A stretch of DNA of 64,000 bases from Dysidea avara (Eukaryota; Porifera; Demospongiae; Dictyoceratida; Dysideidae), in contig NC_089275.1 in the NCBI RefSeq assembly GCF_963678975.1, forward strand, positions 49,189,883-49,253,882, given 5' to 3'. The notes beneath the pieces were generated by a model that saw only the letters and a program-made list of their open reading frames with translations, searched no databases and was not told the origin of the DNA. Position numbers and translations under genes: made by a program. How positions within the stretch are numbered: the first letter of the stretch is position 1; each line of letters starts with the position of its first letter. This document shows, piece after piece, positions 6,378 to 59,628 of this stretch.

Positions 6378-8265
6378 ACTAGCATTGGTACCTGCCCTAT
6401 GTGCAGGACCATCTCCACATTAAACATTTTAATGCCACGAAGAGGGACTAAGCATTAAACACCAGCACTGCTAATGTAGCTATGTAGGGTACATGGTGAT
6501 GTCACATTTTTTAAAGAGCATGAGGTTTTCTTATGTCATTAATGATGCAAAACACTAAAGTTTATTGTTTGTGGTTTTGACAGGAATGTAGTTTAATTAT
6601 TCAGTGCATCTTCCCTACCAGTGACTTCAACGTGCTGTATAGAACAAACGAAACCTTTGCTGCTTTACATGAGAACTAATGCAACAATAATTAATATATT
6701 GGGAACCAAGCATAAATATTAGTGTCCTATATTTGCTGTGTAGCATGTATGTCGATAGTGCTTTAAAGTACATGATCCTTATGCAGTACATAATAATTTA
6801 TAGTGAAGCATGCATGCAAGGCTAGCTAATTAGTTAAACTGCATGCGAGCTAAGGCAATTGTATACAGTATACCCTACATTACATACAGGTTGTGTACAC
6901 ACGGTACAGTTTCAGTTTCTACATTTTGATGTTTACTTTACCGACTGTCACAAAGAGAAATGAACTTGAGCATAATTTAAAGTCAACACAATTTGCAGTT
7001 ATAGTTACTGCATGGCAAGCAAAAGTTCAGAACTTGTCCTATGCACTTTCAGTTCTGATGTTGCAGTGACACATATACCTCTTGCCATACAAAAACCCAG
7101 TTTTGAAACACCTGCAGTGTAATTGACCAATAAGGTAATGTATGAATCTTTAGAGTGAAAGCATGTAAGCAGGATAGTGAAACAGTTGTGCCAGGTCAGA
7201 TGCAGTTCCTTGGTGTAAACTATGGATCTGCATGGTTCCAGTATTATCATTTTTCTGATGCACAGTAGTATTTGTTCAATCATGCAAGCTGCCTATTATT
7301 ACAGCAGTATTGAGGTAGTCTGAACAAACAGTTTTTCATGTCAGTGCACACCAATGTGCTTAAAACAAAGATGTAGATATTCTGGATACTGGTGAAAGAA
7401 GCTTTTACCTACTCTAATACAACACACTGGACCAACACACAGATGGACAAATATGTTGGCAATTAGTCTGCCCTGTCCCAAAAGTGCTATAAGAGTCCCT
7501 ATTATGTGAGGTAATTCAGTGCCAGTGCTGAAAAATTGATCATAAGAGTTTGTAGATGAAGACTTGCATGGAACAGATAGAGCAAAAAGGTGCATCAAAA
7601 AGGTCCCAAAAGTGAAAAAAAAGTTATGACCTAGGCGGGGATTGAACCCTGGCTGGTTATAATAACTTAGGGTTAAGGGAGGTGCACAAATCGCCACAGT
7701 TGTTTATCAGTGGTTTTGACAGGAATGTAGCTCAACTTTTCAGTGATCCTTCCCTACACCAGTGCCTTCATCGCCCTATAAAGAGCGAACAAAAGCACGT
7801 ATTGATTTGCTACAACAACACTCGAGTTGCCAGATGATGGGCGTTTAATTTCGCTAAAGTCCCGCCTCGATACGTACTTTGCATGCCAAGATATGATGAA
7901 CTAAAAGTCGTGTTTTAAAAAGGTGTTCACAAAAAGGTACTGAGTAGAAAGAAAAAAATCTGTCAACACGTGGATTTGAACCCACGACCTCTTACATGCT
8001 AGTCAGGCGTTCTACCACTTGAACAGTATTTACTGTGGTTTTCAAAGGAATGTTGCTCAAGTTTTCTCTACACCTTGGCCTTCTACGCGCTGTAGAGACC
8101 GAACGGAAGCACGCGTGAACTCGTGATAACAATCTTAGAGTAGGCGGATGATGAGCGCTTCATTATCAGCACAGACTATGTCGATTCGCGCCAAGTCTGG
8201 TGAGTAAGCAGCGTGACCGTCAGACAGACAGACAGACAGACAGCTTTTCAGCTTTATATATATAG
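6378..8265. repeat. 1.89-kb repeat, tandem copy 1
   Basis: Starts ACTAGCATTGGTACCTGCCC and ends (GACA)n-GCTTTTCAGCTTTATATATA. It is followed directly by a nearly identical copy (a handful of substitutions and a 3-bp indel). Internally, a block starting GTGGTTTTGACAGGAATGTA recurs in diverged form at 6570, 7711 and 8035, so the unit is itself built from duplications. It contains tRNA-like segments on the minus strand (about 7960-8035, anticodon-loop CTAGCAT and B-box GGGTTCAAATCC; about 7635-7665). A diverged third copy lies at 27,679-29,652. Confidence 0.75.
7958..8035 (-). repeat. tRNA-like segment (SINE-like), copy 1
   Basis: Read on the minus strand it has an A-box-like GTTCAAGTGGTAGAACGCC, an anticodon loop like tRNA-Ala (AGC) and a B box GGGTTCAAATCC. 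It lacks a good acceptor stem. It is probably a tRNA-derived part of the surrounding repeat, not a working tRNA gene. The same segment repeats at 9843-9920. Confidence 0.5.
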
Positions 8266-10156
8266 ACTAACATTGGTACCTGCCCTATGTGCAGGACCAT
8301 CTCCACATTAAGCAGTTTAATGCCACGAAGAGGGACTAAGCATTAAACACCAGCACTGCTAATGTAGCTATGTAGGGTACATGGTGATGTCACATTTTTT
8401 AAAGAGCATGAGGTTTTCTTATGTCATTAATGATGCAAAACACTAAAGTTTATTGTTTGTGGTTTTGACAGGAATGTAGTTTAATTATTCAGTGCATCTT
8501 CCCTACCAGTGACTTCAACGTGCTGTATAGAACAAACGAAACCTTTGCTGCTTTACATGAGAACTAATGCAACAATAATTAATATATTGGGAACCAAGCA
8601 TAAATATTAGTGTCCTATATTTGCTGTGTAGCATGTATGTCGATAGTGCTTTAAAGTACATGATCCTTATGCAGTACATAATTTATAGTGAAGCATGCAT
8701 GCAAGGCTAGCTAATTAGTTAAACTGCATGCGAGCTAAGGCAATTGTATACAGTATACCCTACATTACATACAGGTTGTGTACACACGGTACAGTTTCAG
8801 TTTCTACATTTTGATGTTTACCTTACCGACTGTCACAAAGAGAAATGAACTTGAGCATAATTTAAAGTCAACACAATTTGCAGTTATAGTTACTGCATGG
8901 CAAGCAAAAGTTCAGAACTTGTCCTATGCACTTTCAGTTCTGATGTTGCAGTGACACATATACCTCTTGCCATACAAAAACCCAGTTTTGAAACACCTGC
9001 AGTGTAATTGACCAATAAGGTAATGTATGAATCTTTAGAGTGAAAGCATGTAAGCAGGATAGTGAAACAGTTGTGCCAGGTCAGATGCAGTTCCTCGGTG
9101 TAAACTATGGATCTGCATGGTTCCAGTATTATCATTTTTCTGATGCACAGTAGTATTTGTTCAATCATGCAAGCTGCCTATTACTACAGCAGTATTGAGG
9201 TAAGTCTGAACAAACAGTTTTTCATGTCAGTGCACACCTATGTGCTTAAAACAAAGATGTAGATATTCTGGATACTGGTGAAAGAAGCTTTTACCTACTC
9301 TAATACAACACACTGGACCAACACACAGATGGACAAATATGTTGGCAATTTGTCTGCCCTGTCCCAAAAGTGCTATAAGAGTCCCTATTATGTGAGGTAA
9401 TTCAGTGCCAGTGCTGAAAAATTGATCATAAGAGTTTGTAGATGAAGACTTGCATGGAACAGATAGAGCAAAAAGGTGCATCAAAAAGGTCCCAAAAGTG
9501 AAAAAAAAGTTATGACCTAGGCGGGGATTGAACCCTGGCTGGTTATAATAACTTGGGGTTAAGGGAGGTGCACAAATCGCCACAGTTGTTTATCAGTGGT
9601 TTTGACAGGAATGTAGCTCAACTTTTCAGTGATCCTTCCCTACACCAGTGCCTTCATCGCCCTATAAAGAGCGAACAAAAGCACGTATTGATATGCTACA
9701 ACAACACTCGAGTTGCCAGATGATGGGTGTTTAATTTCGCTAAAGTCCCGCCTCGATACGTACTTTGCATGCCAAGATATGATGAGCTAAAAGTCGTGTT
9801 TTAAAAAGGTGTTCACAAAAAGGTACTGAGTAGAAAGAAAAAAATCTGTCAACACGTGGATTTGAACCCACGACCTCTTACACGCTAGTCAGGCGTTCTA
9901 CCACTTGAACAGTATTTACTGTGGTTTTCAAAGGAATGTTGCTCAAGTTTTCTCTACACCTTGGCCTTCTACGCGCTGTAGAGACCGAACGGAAGCACGC
10001 GTGAACTCGTGATAACAATCTTAGAGTAGGCGGATGATGAGCGCTTCATTATCAGCACAGACTATGTCGATTCGCGCCAAGTCTGGTGAGTAAGCAGCGT
10101 GACCGTCAGACAGACAGACAGACAGACAGACAGGCTTTTCAGCTTTATATATATAG
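8266..10156. repeat. 1.89-kb repeat, tandem copy 2
   Basis: Second head-to-tail copy of the 6378 unit, with the same start (ACTAACATTGGTACCTGCCC) and end (GACAGACAGGCTTTTCAGC...TATATAGA). The very low divergence implies a recent duplication, or two haplotypes joined in assembly. Confidence 0.75.
9843..9920 (-). repeat. tRNA-like segment (SINE-like), copy 2
   Basis: Counterpart of 7958-8035 in the second tandem copy, with the same tRNA-Ala-like A box, loop and B box. Confidence 0.5.
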
Positions 10157-10916
10157 ATATGCCCCCACTCACGCCCCCACGTACATTTTTAGCATAGAAA
10201 ATAGACACCCCGGTAATTAGTCTGGCGGCGCCCGCCCCTTCGCATAGAGTAAGGGTCTGGTATGCTTAGTATAGCGGAGTTGTACCCGATTACCAAAAAC
10301 TGGTGCAACCAATCAGAACGCTCCACGTTTAATCAGCGCATTTTTTGTGTATGTTACGTCAAAAGAATGAATCATACTGTCCTAACAGTACTGAAGAAAC
10401 AAAAGGAGTTAGCTAATAAAGAACAAAGAGAAGAAAGTGTTATATCGGGAAGGGCTTTTCGCCTTGTTTGATACGCGAAAAACCCATGTTACGCTCTGAT
10501 TTCCTAGGTAGGGAGGCATGTGTATTTTATAAAAGTAGACCAATCCGCTGTCGCCTGTGTAAAGGCGAAGAAAGTTCAATATCTCTACCACAGTTTTGGG
10601 TCAAGGGGGTGGCACTCCACGAGGCACTCCAATAGTAGCTGTACTCCGAGCTGTGACCGCGGTCAAGGTGCTGGTCAAAAATCAACCTGAATAAAATGGT
10701 TCAGTCAAGAGTCATGCTGCTGTAGTACGGCGGTCAACGGTCAAGCAAAATCACACAACAAAAACCCACAATCGATATAAAAGAAGTGAAATATACGACA
10801 ATTTTCGGGGAAAAGCGAAAACAGCGATATAAATAGCTAGTTTGAGTATAGTGTCGTATGCAACTAGTAGCTATTATGGCAGATTCTGTAACAATGAAGT
10901 GCTCGAGAAGGCCGTA

Positions 10917-17035: not shown

Positions 17036-20000
17036 ATGGCCAGTGGAGGAAATGTAAAGGACGAATGGCAACAGATCGAAGAAGAAATAACTTGTTCCAT
17101 CTGTGGAGATCTTTATACTGATCCGAAGACCATCCCGTGTTTACACACCTTCTGTAAGCAATGTATAGAGAGGAGTATAGAGTCTAATAAGAAAATGGCG
17201 ACCATTGTTTGTTGTCCGTTATGTCGTGCACCACTTCTGCAAGACAGTTTGGAATCTATTCCAACAAACTGTAGGACCAGGTGTCCTACAGACCTTCAGC
17301 ACTTGTGCTGTAAAGCATTAATAAAAAAAAAATAATAAAAAAATAAAACTTTACTATTAAACGATTGATAGAGATCTTTAATCAAAGAAAAGAAGTCGCA
17401 GTAGACTCTCGAAGTGTCACTTCAACTGATAATCGAGATGATAACAAGGCACAATTCGCTGTACAAGTTGATACTATCAAACCGGTGGGTCAAAGTGAAG
17501 AAAATGAGGTTAAAACTAAGAAGTTGACAGCACCATTGAAACAGATGTTTAAATGGTTGAAATTATCAAAGGGAAAAAATCCAAATGTTCATGCATCACA
17601 GCATGATAATGAGGTTGATAATGAGAATGAGGTTGATAATGAGAATGAGGTTGATAATGAGAATGAGGTTGATAATGAGAATGAGGTTGATAATAAGAAT
17701 GAGGTTGATAATGAGGCTGCAGCTGATGTATCATGTCCCCATGAGGTTTCACAGCAGTCTGTTCCCCCAGATCACCTGCCATTGTTTGTAGCAAAGTATG
17801 ATTACACTGCTAGAGAAAGTGGTGACTTAACCATTAAGAGAGGAGACCAGGTCTACATCGTTGATGATAAGGAAGAGGGCTGGTGGTTGGCTAAAGCTAA
17901 ATCATCTGGTCAAGAAGGGTTTATCCCCAGTAATTACACTGCGGAGTTCAAGTCTTTGCATGCTGAAGAGTAAGTTTATGTAATTGTATACTATAAGACT
18001 ACAACAAGTTTGATACTGACATTTGATTGGCTGAAAACGTGGTCTCTAAATCTCATAGAGCCACACTCATGTCAATAGAGACCACACTCTGAGGCGATAT
18101 GAAACGATATGAAACACGATAATTACAGGATAATTACACACCTGTAACATTGGCAACACATGGGTGTTTAAATGGTGTAATGGGCTTGTTTGTACTAATC
18201 AACACTACTTTACTTGCTTACAAGCAGCTGTTGAGGCACAACAATAGCAACAATGGGTTGTAGTCCAGTCGCTTGAGTCCAGTACTTTAAAACATAGCAC
18301 GTGCCTGTAACACTGGCAACGCATGGACATTTAAACGGGTAGCAACAGCGACGCTGAGGTCCCGCCATGTAGGGAGGTGTAGAGGGCTTATTTCTAGTAA
18401 TTAGCCATGCATTTCTTGTTTACAAGTAGCTGTCAACTCAAGGTACAATAACGAGTTGTAGTCTAAATAAGTTAGACGTCAAGAACCACTAGGTTATGGG
18501 ATTTAGAAAACCTTCAGGCCCTTAATAGTGTGCTCGGGTGCTACAGCCCAGGGCCTTCGAGTTTTCTAAATCCCATAGAACCCTGGTTCTTGATGTCTAA
18601 CTTATTTATATCCCAAATGATGTCACAGATTTCAATAGATACTGGGGACTCGAATGTGAGTTCTAATGAGGCTTAATAAGAAATCGAATGAATATATATT
18701 TAATCCTGGAAGAAGATATCGACCTAAAACTAACAGGTATGGTTATAGTAGTATAATATCTATCGTCTTATGCCGGGTTGAAATTTTCAGCTTATTGTTT
18801 AAGTTGAGTAGAAATACTATCATGTCTTCATTGTGAAAACCATACCTGGAATTTTTGCCTCGATATCTTGTTTGTTAGCTGCTATACCAATCTTCAAAAT
18901 ATTGATCACCATTATTGTTAACAATACTTGAGTCCCCAAAATTGAAAATTTGCGTGACATCATTTTTGAATGGTACTACCTAGAGATTAATCTACAAGGC
19001 AGCCATTCGGGGTTTATTCACCAGTATCAGGGACGGATCCAGGAGCTGGCAAGGAGAGGGGCACAAACAGGCTAAGTTGTGGGTGGTTGGGGAGAGCAGA
19101 TTCTCTTTTAGTTGCTGTATTTTTAACTAGCAATGATCACTCTTTAGTAGGTTTCTTTTTGTCATTATGGCCTTTACAGATGGTTGTGAAGTCTTAAGAA
19201 CTGTTTAAAAGGCTACAAAAGTATTAACACCAACAACACAATAATTATTTTTAGAGGCGCCTAGTACACACGAAGGTGCTGAGTAACAGTTTGATAGCTG
19301 TTTTAACTGTGGTTTCAGGTGAGTTTGCAATAAATGGTAGTAATATGCAGTTTTCATGAGTGATATAATTGATTTTGGTCTAACAAGGTGCATAGTATTT
19401 GTATAAAAATAAGTCATTGTGTGTGTGTGTGTGTGGGGGGGGGGGGGGAGAGATTTGCCCCAAATGCCCCATCCTGGATCCGCCATTGAGTATAAACAAC
19501 TTGGCTACAAAATCTTGACAAATAGATTACAGTGGAACCTCAGTTATCTGAACCTCTTGGGACCAGGGGGTCCATTATCCTAAAAACTCTATCTCTGAAA
19601 TTGTTTATAAATAACCTTAAAATAGCATAAACAAAATTAAAAATATATATAATGATGTTGAATTACCCTAATAGAACAGTCACCACTCTAATACCATATG
19701 GAGTCAAATTTTCGTAGTAAAATAATTTTTGTAAATAGCAGGCAGTTATGAATTTTTTCCTATGAATATTACATGAGCGCACCCCCCCTCCTCAGAAATA
19801 ACGAGCATGCACGTTGAGCTTATCTTTTTCAGCAAATGCCCAACAATATTTCCACTTTTACAGCAAATGGATCGTACGCATTTGTTATCTCCCTCTACTC
19901 TAGCAAAGGAGCATTTCTTCTCGAACCAGCATCCACCTATCCTTGTATACATGAAATCCTCTCACTGGTATTGTTGTTTCACTAGCACCTCAGCTGGTCA

Positions 20001-22672
20001 GTAGACTCGTGCCCAGACCCCACCCACTGCTCAATGCAGTGGGTGGGGTCTGGGCACAAGACTGCTGGTCAGAAGTCCATCTGCGTCTAAATTAAATTAG
20101 CTATAATTATGAAAATTAACTGCCATCATAGCTCAGCATATTTTTACAAAATTTTTTATTACAAAAAATTTGTTAGGCGAATATTTTCAACTTTTACGAA
20201 ATTTTTGCATTACGGAAATTTGGCGCTATACGGTAGAGCAGTCATTTCCATAGTTCTATTAACTGAGAATCTGGATAAGTGGTGTCTGGATAACTGAGGT
20301 TCTACTGTATATTACTTTCAATAGTGCTGTAGGTCACCAACTAAAGTTCAGCAAACTCACAACTCAATTAATTTAATAGCTAATGGTGAAGTATGCAAAT
20401 ACACAACCAATACAAAGTCTATGGTTATAAGTTCCTAAATGAATTACATTGGGAAAGGTTTTAACTTCTAAAAATACACAGAGATAAGTTGTTTGGGCAG
20501 AAGAGTTTGCAGTCTGATGGCTTTAGTGTTACAGTGCTTTGTGCGATAACTAATAACAAGAGTTCATAATATATATACTGAGGAGAGTATCCTACTCTCA
20601 TATACCCCTGTAGAAGGGTGTATCGTGAAGTTATGATGTAATACTTCTGAGTTCGCCCATTTTTCTTTGTATAATTAATGATGTCATTAGTTGAAAATGG
20701 TATCGATTGAACGTGTGCCTAACAACGTCGCTAGCAACCAAATTAACTCCAACTCTAAGCGTTTCTCACCAAACTACAATCGTTTCTTCATGGGTTAAAA
20801 CTCCTTCGTAGGCATTTCTTGCTAAGCCATTCACAAATATGGCTATCCTGAGTGTCACGAGTGTAAAATGGTGCTAATGATTCTTGCACTTTTACGGCTG
20901 CCCACACATCACAAACCACAACATCTTGTCGTTACGTCCTAACTTCATGATACGCCTTTCTACAGGGGTATATGAGAGTAGGATACTCTCCTTAGTATAT
21001 ATATTATGAACTCTTGGTGTTAGTATATTGTCAGGACCACAAACAGCATACCTTTGCATTTTTGCATTACCACACTATTAACATTCACACTGCCTGAAAT
21101 GCTGTGTAGTGGTAATACAAGAATTGTTGCTTCACATGTTAAATATTATTTAAACATCAATTAACTGAAAGTTGTGCCAGGACCCCATCAGCACTGCAAA
21201 GGCCTGGTCACGCACTGACAGATTAAATTACATACCTAAAATATGGAGTGGTTTCCAGCACTTAGAAAAGGTTCATTCAGCTCATTGTGTTGAACAATAA
21301 AGCATACAAATAATGTGGCTTACTTATTAGTTATATAGTTGGACTGTTGTCCCAGTTAACAAGTGCTGTACTTTTACTGCTATTTTTATCATGAAATGGT
21401 ATGTTTTGTGTGATTTACGGCTGACAGTAACAAGTATCCATATTTTGATGGGTGTGTAACATAGAAATGGGACCTGCACAACTTATAACCCTTATGCAAA
21501 TTACCTTGACTGACTTATCTGTTTTGTGTAGGTGGTTCCATGGATGTATCGATCGTATAGATGTTGAGAAACGGTTGTTTTCTGCTCCTGTTGGATCTTT
21601 CCTTGTGCGTAGTGTCATTGAAACGGGTGCTTATTCTCTCTGTGTTAGAGATGTAGAAAAGGTGAAGTTCTACAGAATACGATATATAGATGATGATACC
21701 AGGAAATGCTTTATCACTAGACGGGTGTGTTTTGATACTGTACAAGAACTAATTGCCTACTATAGCTGTCAAGCAGATGGTCTTTGTACTACATTGAGTA
21801 CACCTTGTCAACTTGTTGAACCACTACCAACTGCAGGATTGTCAAGGAAAACTAACAAAACTTGCAAAATTGAACGAGATTTAATTCAACTTAAAAGACA
21901 ACTAGGTGCAGGGAAATTCTGTGATGTATGGGGGGGAGTGTGGAATGGCATGGCTGCAGTTGCTGTGAAAGTGTTTAAATCTGGTATTGTGGCTCCATCT
22001 GAATTTCTAAGTGAGGTAGTTTTGATGAAACAACTTCAACATACCAATGTAATCCAAGTATATGGACTATGCGCACAAGAGGACCCCATCTACATGGTGA
22101 TGGAGTTGATGAAACATGGCAGCTTGTTAGAGTACCTCAGAGGTGATGGTCGTTCTCTAAAGCTTCCCCAACTAATAGATATGGGAGCACAAGTAGCAGC
22201 TGGAATGGCTTACCTTGAGGAGAAAAATTATATCCATCAAGATCTTGCTGCAAGAAATATTTTAGTATCAGAGAATCTTATCTGTAAGGTGGCAGATTTT
22301 GGCTTAGCCCGAGTCATTGATGAAGATATCTATGAAGCACACACTGGAGCAAAGTTCCCCATCAAGTGGACAGCTCCAGAGGCTGCAATGTATAATCGTT
22401 TTACCGTAAAATCTGATGTGTGGTCATTTGGTATCCTACTTTACGAGTTGATCACCTATGATCGTTTCCCTTACCCCGGAATGAATAATGCTGAAGTCTT
22501 AGAAGCATTGCAAACAGGTTATCGTATGCCATGTCCGATGGGTTGTCCAGAACTGCTCCATCAAATTATGTTAAAGTGTTGGAAGGATGATGCGGCATCT
22601 AGATTAACATTTGAAACCCTTCATTGGCAACTGGATGATTTTTTTCATTTGGATGAACAGTTAAATACATAA
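17036..22672 (+). CDS. RING-SH3-SH2-tyrosine kinase fusion (disrupted)
   Basis: Exon 1 is 17,036-17,969 and exon 2 is 21,532-22,672. Donor GA|GTAAGT joins acceptor TTTTGTGTAG to give SLHA-EE-WFHG, the usual Src SH3-SH2 linker. Without the 80-bp insertion at 17,270-17,349 the frame is continuous for 664 codons. Order: C3HC4 RING (C20, C23, C35, H37, C40, C43, C60, C63); acidic NEVDNE repeats (about 163-198); SH3 (222-279, AKYDY, WW, IPSNY); SH2 (286-380, FLVRS Arg311); kinase (from about 408: GAGKFC loop, VAVK Lys431, HQD 520-522 in place of HRD, DFG 540-542, activation Tyr552, APE). No N-terminal myristoylation Gly and no C-terminal regulatory Tyr. Predicted role: a tyrosine kinase coupled to E3 ubiquitin ligase activity. 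The insertion shifts frame and adds a stop, so this copy yields a truncated RING protein unless bypassed. AATAAA at 22,703. Confidence 0.8.
17270..17349 (+). mobile_element. 80-bp SINE-tail insertion in RING exon
   Basis: The segment ends in TGCTGTAAAGCATTAATAAA plus poly-A and is flanked by a short AAACT duplication (17,266 and 17,346). It matches the 3' tails at 16,045 and 16,300. Removing exactly 80 bases restores the host frame (ATT CCA ACA AAC then TTT ACT ATT AAA). It introduces stop codons and a polyadenylation-like AATAAA. Confidence 0.8.
17605..17717 (+). repeat. In-frame 18-bp coding minisatellite
   Basis: About five tandem copies of GATAATGAGAATGAGGTT encode an acidic, asparagine-rich NEVDNE linker between RING and SH3. 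The near-identical codons suggest recent slippage and likely length polymorphism. Confidence 0.8.
18135..18465. repeat. Diverged direct repeat in kinase intron
   Basis: Two diverged direct copies of a segment of about 130 bp (CCTGTAACATTGGCAACACATG... and CCTGTAACACTGGCAACGCATG...) each end in a TTGTAGTC motif. Origin unknown. Confidence 0.45.
18466..18606. mobile_element. 141-bp hairpin MITE
   Basis: Left arm ATAAGTTAGACGTCAAGAACC is mirrored by GGTTCTTGATGTCTAACTTAT. The loop region shares the CCTTCAGG...GGGTGCTACAG...AGGGCCTTC core with the hairpin at 3865-4010. It lies in the intron of the RING-kinase gene. Confidence 0.65.
19027..19488 (+). mobile_element. MITE, GGATCC-type ends, copy 1
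   Basis: Ends AGGGACGGATCCAGGAGCTGG and CATCCTGGATCCGCCATTG form an imperfect inverted repeat. A second copy lies in reverse orientation at 28,008-28,486, with shared interior blocks (GGCGCCTC/GAGGCGCC, and AAGTCTTAA near CAGATGGTTGTG). It includes a (TG)n-(G)n stretch. Confidence 0.65.
19530..20307. mobile_element. pogo/Tigger-like MITE with TA target
   Basis: CAGTGGAACCTCAGTTATC at 19,530 and GATAACTGAGGTTCTACTG ending at 20,307 are inverted and flanked by TA on both sides, as for Tc1/mariner-pogo elements. The 778-bp interior has no transposase and contains the perfect hairpin at 19,999-20,066. It lies in the kinase intron. Confidence 0.7.
19999..20066. repeat. Strong GC-rich hairpin
   Basis: About 30 bp of near-perfect inverted repeat (GTGCCCAGACCCCACCCACT and complement) around a TCAAT loop, inside the pogo-like element. 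It could fold back in RNA. Confidence 0.7.
20558..21016. mobile_element. 459-bp MITE, copy 1
   Basis: TIRs of about 80 bp: CAAGAGTTCATAATATATAT...CTCTCATATACCCCTGTAGA and the complement at the right end. It is nearly identical to 43,512-43,970. No coding capacity. It is within the kinase intron. Confidence 0.75.
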
Positions 22673-24057: not shown

Positions 24058-24981
<924 letters not shown>

Positions 24982-42600: not shown

Positions 42601-44758
42601 ACTACATACAGGATGGTCACTATACACACAGGGTAGTCACTACACACAGGATGGCCACTCACTCCTTTATCAGGTCTCCTCTTGGGTAGGGTCTGTACTG
42701 CAGCATGATGATACTCCACCCCGGTACGACGATGTCTGTATCCTCCCAGAAATGGTTTAGGTACTGATGTATGCTCTATATGTACTAGTATTTCCTGCTT
42801 TCCTCCTGCAGGGGTGCAGTTGATAGATCATGTGATCACAAGTTCCACCCACTAACCATCATCTGAATCAACTTCTACAGTCAACACTGATCCCATCCTG
42901 TAACCTGGATCATGTGACCCCATTTTATAGCCAGGATCATGTGATCTTGTATTAGGGGGAGGTCCCGTGTCCACAAGGTCATTAGCAATCTCCAGTGATA
43001 CCTGTAACTCCAGTTTACCTTTATCAGCCATGCCTAACTCTTCTAGTCTGGTAGTAGCTGATAACAGCTCACCTAATAAGGAAAGGATATTGTTTGTCTT
43101 AATTTGGCAAGAAAGCAGGAACATAGGGTGTCAATACAACCAATAGCTGACTAAACCCATTAACCTGAAATTTTTATCCACTAAGCCATGTTGATACTCA
43201 CTACTGACCAAATTTCTGAAGTTATGAATTATCAAAGTTGGTAATTGGTGTGGAATATCCCCTTTTCACCAATCCCAGTCAATGACATTTTGATCACCTA
43301 GCTGATAATGTATAACTTGTTGAAATACAACATGATGATAGTGCAATATTGTATGAAGCTGTAAATAGCAAAATTTATAAATAGACTATTAAGGAGACAA
43401 TTTTCATAGTATACGAAAAAACAGTTCATAGTACACCCCCAGTGATGCAGTGATAAGATATTTCGTAGTTAACATTTTAATGATTAAATGGCCAATGTTG
43501 ATAGCTAATACCAAGAGTTCATAATATATATACTAAGGAGAGTATCCTACTCTCATATACCCCTGTAGAAAGGCGTATCGTGAAGTTATGACGTAACACT
43601 TCTGAGTTCGCCCGTTTTTCTTTGTATAATTAATGATGTCATTAGTTGAACATGGTATCAATTGAACGTGTGCCTACCAACGTCGCTAGCAACCAAATTA
43701 ACTCCAGCTCTAAGCGTTTCTCACCCAACTACAATCGTTCCTTCATGGGTTAAGACTACTTTGTAGGTGTTTCTTACTAGGCCATTCGCGAATACGGCTA
43801 TCCTGAGCGTCGCAAGTGTGAAACAATGCTAACGATTCTTGCACTTTTACGGCTTCCTGTACGTCACAAACCACAACATCTTGTTGTTACGTCATAACTT
43901 CACGATACGCCTTTCTACAGGGCTATATGAGAGTAGGATACTCTCCTTAGTATATATATTATGAACTCTTGCTAATACTTTGTATGGCTTCTTTGGGATC
44001 CTACATTAGTAAATGTTGTTACAATCAAGATTTAAAACCATCAAAAGTGTATGAGCCAGCTATTGCAAGGTACTGACATTACTATACTGGTTAGCAGTAA
44101 CTAATCTAATTAATTATTCAAAGAGGAAGGGGTGGCACCAAAAGGCTGGAGGGAATAATCATCATTGAAGTCAGTGACGTACTTGGAGATGAAAAACTGA
44201 TAAAATGGCGGCACTGTAATACCAACAATTAATTACCTTGCCACATTAGTTCAGTCGCTAGTATCTCATCAGGGAGATACCAACAATAACATTGGGATGT
44301 AATAATTATATCAGTCCAGTTACCTTCCTACCCAAGTAATGACAAGAAAACTAGCAAGTGTGTTCATGACACAAATTTCCACTAAGTATAAGGGGACCAG
44401 AACTGTGTAATAGGGAGTGTAGTGCACGTGGACAATGTAATAGATAAAGTATTACAACACCTACCACTAAATGATAATGATAGTACAGCATTGTTGGGTA
44501 TTAGGTGGTCCCAAGCTTGTTCCAATTCTCTCCTCAATTGTTCCACACTACAATGTACACTAGCAGTGGTGTGGTATGATGTGTTAGCGTCTAGTATCAT
44601 CTCCACTACGAGTAGGATGATATTATACGAGCTAACAATAGCGATATCTCACCTTCGATATTATCCTCAACGTCATTGGCAGTGGTAGCAGCCTCTTCGC
44701 TCTCCTTATACTCTTCCTCATCTTCTAGTCTGTTATTGGCCGCTGCCTCGCCCTCCAT
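30653..44758 (-). CDS. IQUB: IQ and ubiquitin-like domain protein
   Basis: Fifteen coding exons, all with AG/GT borders and consistent phase: 44758-44653, 44605-44465, 43072-42857, 42805-42663, 41881-41798, 41742-41644, 40919-40821, 40347-40236, 39051-38876, 38123-37953, 37662-37569, 37504-37321, 34422-34275, 32449-32264, 30835-30653. They give 713 aa (human IQUB is about 790). An acidic N-terminus is followed by a ubiquitin-like fold (exons 2-3), the conserved [19 protein letters not shown] block, an IQ calmodulin-binding helix in exon 7 ([14 protein letters not shown]), [15 protein letters not shown], a long helical region, two CxxC pairs (CRSC, CRKC; probable zinc site) and the SPWNCVLL block. 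IQUB is an axonemal radial-spoke-base protein needed for sperm motility, so flagellated cells are the expected site. Starts 337 bp downstream of the PCNA stop. Confidence 0.95.
31650..31985. mobile_element. pogo-like MITE remnants in IQUB intron
   Basis: CTCTGGAACCTGTTAATGTGG starts one fragment. GGTTTCCCTCCATTATCTGAA and CCGGATAATGGAGGGATCACTGTA (31,766-31,985) form inverted ends of another. Contains two ACTCTAATAGAACA motifs. Confidence 0.5.
34708..34780 (+). tRNA. tRNA-Lys (UUU), IQUB intron 12
   Basis: Full cloverleaf: acceptor GTCCAGT/ACTGGGC (one T-G pair), D arm TAGCTCAGTCGTTAGAGCA, anticodon loop CTTTTAA (anticodon TTT), T arm GGGTTCAAGTCCC. A T-rich run about 15 nt downstream (TTTTTCTTTTT) could end Pol III transcription. 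It is opposite in strand to the host gene. Confidence 0.9.
35045..35690. mobile_element. hAT-like MITE with 8-bp duplication
   Basis: TIRs TAGGGCTGCACCGATTC and GAATCGGCGCAGCCCTA are flanked by a perfect ATATTGTG direct repeat (35,037-35,044 and 35,691-35,698). Internal imperfect inverted ACCGATACT/AGTATCGG motifs. 646 bp, non-coding, in IQUB intron 12. Confidence 0.85.
35943..36195. mobile_element. Hairpin MITE, relative of 4853 element
   Basis: Arms with CAATAAAAAGTAGTGAAACA and ATGATGGTATTACAGCATAG are mirrored around a TTATAGCTAA centre. Outer motif shared with 4853-5155, inner arms different. Confidence 0.65.
37735..37905. repeat. Dispersed pogo-like fragment
   Basis: Contains a block TTTCAGGGGTCTAAATGTGT...AATGGGACCAT that recurs almost unchanged at 63,729-63,775. 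In IQUB intron 10. Confidence 0.5.
39434..40124. mobile_element. hAT-like MITE in IQUB intron 8
   Basis: TIRs of about 40 bp (ATAGATATACGACTCTTAAT...GGATTGGAAATGTCA and complement) are flanked by GTGAAACC on both sides. Non-coding interior. Confidence 0.7.
41404..41475 (+). tRNA. tRNA-Lys (UUU), IQUB intron 6
   Basis: Acceptor GCCCAGT/ACTGGGC fully paired, same D and anticodon arms as at 34,708, T arm GGGTTCAAATCCC, followed by TTTTCTTGTTTTTG. The 5' flank CCATGAGCA is shared with the other two copies. Opposite in strand to IQUB. Confidence 0.9.
42455..42655. repeat. Minisatellite in IQUB intron 4
   Basis: About ten imperfect copies of a 19-20 bp unit (GGTCACTACATACAGGGT and variants). It ends about 8 bp from the exon 4 donor. 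Confidence 0.8.
43512..43970. mobile_element. 459-bp MITE, copy 2
   Basis: Nearly identical to 20,558-21,016, with the same long TIRs. Flanked by a perfect GCTAATAC direct repeat (43,504-43,511 and 43,971-43,978), so hAT-like. In IQUB intron 2. Confidence 0.8.

Positions 44759-49325: not shown

Positions 49326-59628
<10,303 letters not shown>

Follow-up and report, generated by a model that had tools for sequence, protein, structure and literature searches.

TRIM-type RING heads on Src-type kinase modules: a candidate fusion gene family in the sponge Dysidea avara and an interrupted member

The stretch of Dysidea avara DNA analysed here (64,000 nucleotides of contig NC_089275.1, hereafter the window) carries on its plus strand the Pfam domains RING, SH3, SH2 and tyrosine kinase, in that order across the window frames. 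The RING frame (17036..17335) opens with the ATG at 17036 and encodes 99 amino acids before the TAA at 17333. Its C3HC4 core (about 17093-17224), assigned from the translation and Pfam, is of TRIM type with a post-cysteine arginine (CPLCR), and matches zf-RING_UBOX at 9.5e-11 and zf-C3HC4 at 4.3e-9. The top solved relatives are the TRIM RINGs of TRIM30 and TRIM2, and at the DNA level the RING is 85-93% identical to the TRIM-type RING copies L022-L032 and L043-L045. The remainder of exon 1 (17347..17969, from the open reading frame and Pfam) encodes a post-RING helix, a linker and an SH3 domain (17788..17931; PF00018, 2.4e-18), and runs up to the splice donor. Within it lie the residues TAPLKQ (17527..17544), a remnant of a TRIM coiled-coil start in the alignment to the TRIM-NHL gene L044, and 6.3 copies of an 18-bp repeat (17603..17715) that encode the ENEVDN linker.

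Exon 2 had been described in the first-pass annotation as coding for an SH2 domain and a tyrosine kinase, and Pfam confirms both: an SH2 with the FLVR arginine at 21533..21763 (PF00017, 4.6e-15) and a Src-type tyrosine kinase at 21884..22633 (PF07714, 4.5e-92), with the stop codon at 22670..22672. Among the 60 matches listed for the SH2-kinase part, Src is the best at 404 bits, against 325 for the best Abl. The kinase retains the catalytic Lys, the aC-Glu, HQD, the Asn, DFG and the activation-loop Tyr; the Arg of the HRD motif is replaced by Gln, the glycine loop is atypical and the C-terminal tail, DDFFHLDEQLNT, is without the regulatory Tyr. At the other end, exon 1 begins with MASGGN and has no Met-Gly anchor. 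In the three window frames Pfam returned no B-box, nor any Cbl model; the tyrosine-kinase-binding domain (4H-EF-SH2) plus RING that marks Cbl was not found.

The same annotation had placed the RING and the SH3 together in exon 1. Both domains are indeed present, but the exon is not one open frame as it stands, since the RING frame ends at 17333 and the SH3 frame starts at 17347 in a different phase. The annotation alluded to such a break by speaking of 'the intact allele', without saying so outright. At this point we found an 80-bp insertion (17271..17350), which is the 5'-truncated tail of a SINE-like retroelement with an A/T-rich end. It includes the second of two AAACT motifs (17266-17270 and 17346-17350), which are a probable short target-site duplication, weak because it is only 5 bp long. 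When the genome was scored for the insert, 40 places were found, window included, and the other 39 are 93-99% identical. Two longer copies that were inspected have further upstream sequence in common, therefore the window insert is 5'-truncated. As a MAFFT alignment opened no clean gap at the insert, the empty site was assessed by asking, for eight paralogues, whether their post-RING DNA scores better with the insert or with the window sequence that follows it. In all eight the post-RING DNA is closer to the DNA beyond the insert than to the insert (beyond/insert scores: L040b 84/13, the clearest; L045 40/11; L044 38/10; L023 36/10; L048 31/16; L047 29/14; L043 26/12; and L051 20/12, the weakest). 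Moreover, the 80 nt of the insert match, modulo three, the shift from the frame of the RING to that of the SH3.

It is possible on paper that splicing bypasses the insert. A scan of GT/GC-AG introns of at least 26 nt, with donors at 17225-17419, acceptors up to 17789 and stop-free rejoining of the two frames, gave 112 donor/acceptor combinations that would reunite RING and SH3. The best pair by eye, donor 17310 (GTAAAG) with acceptor 17770 (TCTGTTCCCCCAG), keeps both domains and loses the post-RING helix and the linker. Read as it stands, the window copy makes no fused protein unless such an unproven splice is used; its product would be only the 99-amino-acid RING peptide, or an unanchored SH3-SH2-kinase protein made by internal initiation.

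Other features of the window lie within or near this gene. In the intron between the two exons, 17992-18602 matches L045 in both orientations at 83-84% and is likely a palindromic mobile element, and a 472-bp repeat in the same intron (20545-21016) recurs with 91% identity at 43500-43971. About 120 TGC units (99% matches) at 24349-24707, 1.7 kb beyond the kinase gene, make an unusually long trinucleotide array. A head-to-tail duplication of about 1.9 kb (6378-8266 and 8266-10157) is 98.8% identical, and on the minus strand 55359-55868 is a Kelch exon of host-cell-factor type (Kelch_HCF, 7.8e-15, under the curated cut-off). Sponges have few homeobox genes; the genome analysed here gave at least 34 homeodomain matches, and three homeobox matches within 12 kb at C10:28444938-28456739 may be a small homeobox cluster.

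A search of this 550.8-Mb genome with the window SH2-kinase exon (E <= 1e-87) gave 24 Src-type SH2-kinase places: 1 on C4, 15 on C13 and 8 on C12. We called a place RING-bearing when its own strand carried a RING match no more than 12 kb upstream, with no other kinase intervening. Thirteen of the 24 places are RING-bearing, with SH3 matches in between: the window; C13 at 16706, 17045, 17071, 17352, 17573, 17577 and 17589 kb; and C12 at 22830, 22840, 22894, 22913 and 22971 kb. Eight of the other 11 places were covered together with their upstream part, all except C13 16660, C12 22910 and C12 22978 kb. Within this genome a RING is thus not peculiar to a single Src-type gene.

Six of the 13 have an exon 1 in which one open frame covers a complete C3HC4 RING as well as one or more SH3 domains. 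These are L040a (C13:17573488; 317 codons; RING, B-box, SH3), L047 (586 codons; RING, four B-box matches, SH3), L048 (302 codons; RING, SH3), L049 (602 codons; RING, six SH3), L050 (307 codons; RING, two SH3) and L051 (326 codons; RING, B-box, SH3), the domains of L048 and L050 being assigned from homology matches and not from Pfam. Exon 1 of L035 and L036 is in a single frame, with a RING that is without the middle Cys-x-His pair and has no Pfam RING match, and with B-boxes kept. L016 has one TGA, L037 has its RING and SH3 in separate frames, L040b is broken, and in L042 a GTAAGT donor follows the B-box and the SH3 lies in a frame further downstream. In L015, from which the RING has been lost, B-box-like pairs and the SH3 remain. 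Pfam places a B-box above its cut-off in L035, L036, L037, L040a, L047 and L051, and just under it in L042. By alignment, the post-cysteine Arg of the RING is missing in L040a, L042 and L051. Since the RING is partial in L035 and L036 and absent from L015 and L041a, an E3 function would not be retained throughout. In a structure prediction of exon 1 of L040a (9 rows) the mean pLDDT was 52 and the RING, below 50, was not resolved; the SH3 alone was fairly confident (blocks of 69-86), and B-box blocks reached 76.

At the level of sequence there is good support for the proposal that exon 1, with RING and SH3, and exon 2, with SH2 and kinase, are parts of one gene. The donor GA/GTAAGT after 17969 and the acceptor TTTTGTGTAG before 21532 would remove a phase-2 intron of 3562 nt (17970..21531, GTAAGT...GTGTAG) and join the SH3 to the SH2. 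In all 14 loci examined, 10 of them with a RING and 4 without, the positions of the donor after the SH3 and of the acceptor before the SH2 coincide, and with the same two splice sites in 13 other loci those of the window are not chance. Additional candidate sites were seen at L041a, L048 and L049 (donors) and L050 (acceptor). The order and strand of the domains, common to 13 of the 24 places, point the same way. The 3.6-kb window intron would be easier to understand if two adjacent genes lay here, one for a RING-SH3 protein and the other for an SH2-kinase protein. However, the intron of L036 is only 72 nt long, the MG-starting Src relatives L033, L034 and L038 use the same intron, and six of the ten RING-bearing second exons (L037, L040a, L047, L048, L050 and L051) have no in-frame Met before the SH2. 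Together with the constant splice position, this makes a pair of neighbouring genes highly improbable.

The RING head appears to derive from a TRIM-NHL gene. L044 consists of a single 805-codon open frame that has Pfam matches to RING, B-box and NHL, and exon 1 of L040a aligns with it over 242 residues (44%, 5e-76), into the start of the coiled coil. The full coiled coil was not found, its start alone being left. In a shuffle test of this remnant, 1 of 2000 shuffles scored as high for the window and 0 of 2000 for L041a and for L040a; L051 was not counted, because 110 of 2000 shuffles did so. Long RING open frames of similar length to L044, which alone was checked with Pfam, flank the Src array of C12 on both sides. 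The many long RING open frames around the TRIM-Src array at C12:22.6-23.7 Mb are a likely source of fusions.

A Met-Gly start is the site of myristoylation, which anchors the protein to the membrane. Such a start is found in four of the seven RING-less relatives that were read (L033, L034, L038 and C13:17561241) and is missing from the other three (L006, L015 and L041a). Apparently the TRIM head took the place of the Met-Gly membrane anchor of Src, from which we infer a loss of anchoring. L006 (C13:16717826) has two SH3 domains, which by eye look like the RING-bearing family type in the first and the L033 type in the second, perhaps another hybrid exon. L041a retains the coiled-coil remnant, therefore it probably lost a RING.

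In the kinase tree the RING-bearing loci form one group (97/89), except that L041a falls inside and L051 outside it, the SH2-kinase part of L051 pairing with that of RING-less L033 (100/99). A single gain of the RING does not suffice for this tree, which requires three changes. In the SH3 tree, where 10 of 13 inner forks are open, L051 stands on the side of the RING-bearing genes, along with two genes that have no RING, and apart from L033, L034 and L038 (96/98). The different placement of L051 in the two trees points to an exon exchange across the intron. Our reading of the history of the RING is one main gain, with a loss at L041a and an exon exchange at L051, although it may have run differently. 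According to this model, a Src-type gene would have acquired in its exon 1, before the SH3, the 5' part of a TRIM-NHL-type gene with the RING, the B-boxes and the first turns of the coiled coil, which would stand there in place of the Met-Gly anchor; the fusion would then have spread by duplication and by exon exchange via the shared phase-2 intron, as the sequences and trees support.

Residues were counted in 11 of the 13 RING-bearing places (L040b, as broken, and C12 22913 kb were omitted) and in seven of the remaining 11, L006 being read separately from the other six. The full set of catalytic Lys, aC-Glu, Asp, Asn and DFG is present in only 4 of the 11 RING-bearing loci (window, L036, L037 and L040a) versus 7 of 7 RING-less ones. 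A one-sided Fisher test gives p = 0.010 for this difference, and 0.051 when the four C12 copies are treated as a single observation. Each of the four modelled C12 members has Asn in place of the catalytic Lys and HGN in place of HRD, so that both Lys and Asp are lost. The SH2 Arg is lost in 5 of 11 RING-bearing loci (L037, L040a, L047, L048 and L049), which weakens the reading of the SH2 as a phosphotyrosine targeting module. L040a alone among the 11 has exon 1 uninterrupted, a C3HC4 RING with nothing missing and every one of the kinase residues; in it the phosphotyrosine-binding Arg of the SH2 is lost and the glycine loop is altered.

The dN/dS values among C12 members were 0.09-0.18 in four pairs for the RING and 0.26-0.31 in four pairs for the SH2-kinase part. 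Other RING pairs gave 0.16-0.36, pairs of the whole exon 1 gave 0.21-0.38, and the window compared with L041a gave 0.47 over the SH2-kinase part. The values come from a simple pairwise method without error bars, dS being high in several pairs and a few pairs not computable. By these ratios the RING codons are under purifying selection.

According to these data, the window gene is probably a member, interrupted in this assembly, of a TRIM-Src fusion family whose proteins would be RING E3 ligases targeted by Src-type modules, a reading to which we give a probability of about 0.57. Its architecture, conserved splice signals, constraint and loss of kinase residues are supported by the comparisons above, and for the family as a whole E3 ligases that use a Src chassis for targeting are most likely, with E3 activity and targeting both putative. 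The protein would be a cytosolic RING E3. Its SH3 domain or domains, SH2 and kinase fold would pick as targets the partners of Src signalling, which would then be ubiquitinated; the degenerate kinase would serve as a scaffold in many members and may still phosphorylate in a few. A broader version, which we put forward only tentatively, is a single-chain machine that evolved with exon exchange between neighbouring genes: its Src-type module would mark or select partners for ubiquitination by the TRIM RING fused to it, and in a large branch the kinase would later have become a pseudokinase module for targeting.

The first-pass annotation suggested that such a protein might merge the successive steps of Src and Cbl in one chain, and by their residues a few members fit this description: L040a has its exon 1 unbroken, the C3HC4 RING and the whole set of catalytic residues, L037 retains its RING and kinase residues, and the window has the RING, the SH2 Arg and the kinase residues, apart from HQD, the atypical glycine loop and the insert. 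The proposal does not extend to the four C12 members without Lys and Asp, and the complete L040a and L037 lack the SH2 Arg. Only one of the four RING-bearing loci with a complete kinase also has a complete RING with exon 1 in one open frame. It is thus unlikely that the family generally consists of bifunctional enzymes whose kinase phosphorylates partners and whose RING ubiquitinates these partners or the protein itself.

The TRIM head might also act by clustering and not through ubiquitin, oligomerising the kinase as in oncogenic TRIM-RET fusions. A review lists TRIM24-, TRIM27- and TRIM33-RET fusions with dimerisation, typically by coiled coils (PMC7230609), and L035 and L036 retain B-boxes despite a degenerate RING. 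However, the coiled coil of the sponge genes is reduced to its start, 7 of the 11 RING-bearing kinases are degenerate and the RING codons of the C12 pairs are more constrained than the SH2-kinase part, so we regard this role as quite improbable. We think nearly as little of the idea that the fused copies are birth-and-death relics, products of recombination between neighbouring arrays that decay without function. The insert of the window, the TGA of L016, the broken L040b and the degenerate RINGs and kinases fit such decay, but in six members exon 1, with its full RING, is still open over about 300-600 codons, and dN/dS is well under 1 in both the RING and the SH2-kinase part.

If the preferred reading, a family of E3 ligases on a Src chassis, is true, these genes are a naturally occurring and inherited equivalent of the fusions between TRIM proteins and kinases in tumours, and a single gene family combines the 'write, read, degrade' sequence of phosphotyrosine signalling. 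Members that are intact, degenerate or RING-less lie adjacent to one another, so the order in which the anchor, the RING and kinase activity were gained or lost is directly testable.

The order SH3-SH2-kinase is that of the Src family kinases, Src being the best solved relative. The window gene differs in having a TRIM RING head where Src has the Met-Gly anchor, in being without the tail Tyr, and in reading HQDLAARN where Src reads HRDLRAAN. With TRIM-NHL E3 ligases of the L044 type the family shares the RING, the B-boxes and the start of the coiled coil; in contrast, it is without the filamin and NHL parts, its coiled coil is short and SH3-SH2-kinase follows instead. In Cbl, too, one polypeptide contains both a RING and a phosphotyrosine reader of SH2 type, but Cbl has no kinase and the two assemblies are unrelated. 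The catalogued oncogenic fusions of TRIM24, TRIM27 and TRIM33 with RET also join a TRIM head to a tyrosine kinase, but they are somatic, involve a receptor kinase and are activated by dimerisation (PMC7230609); the sponge genes are genomic, multicopy, of Src type and often degenerate in the kinase. Src-Aque1, a sponge-specific Src family, has the same SH3-SH2-kinase core and, compared by description only, appears in passages on it with SH3-SH2-kinase alone, the main text of the paper containing 0 occurrences of 'RING domain' (PMC8662651). Titles and abstract openings of the open-licence literature gave no RING-SH3-SH2-kinase protein, a scope that leaves most subscription papers outside and does not prove absence. 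As judged from its sequence, the window gene has the module order of Src and a head like that of TRIM proteins, and as a whole it fits neither definition, because it has no Met-Gly anchor, tail Tyr or B-box and its coiled coil is cut short. The family is therefore best called the TRIM-Src fusion family.
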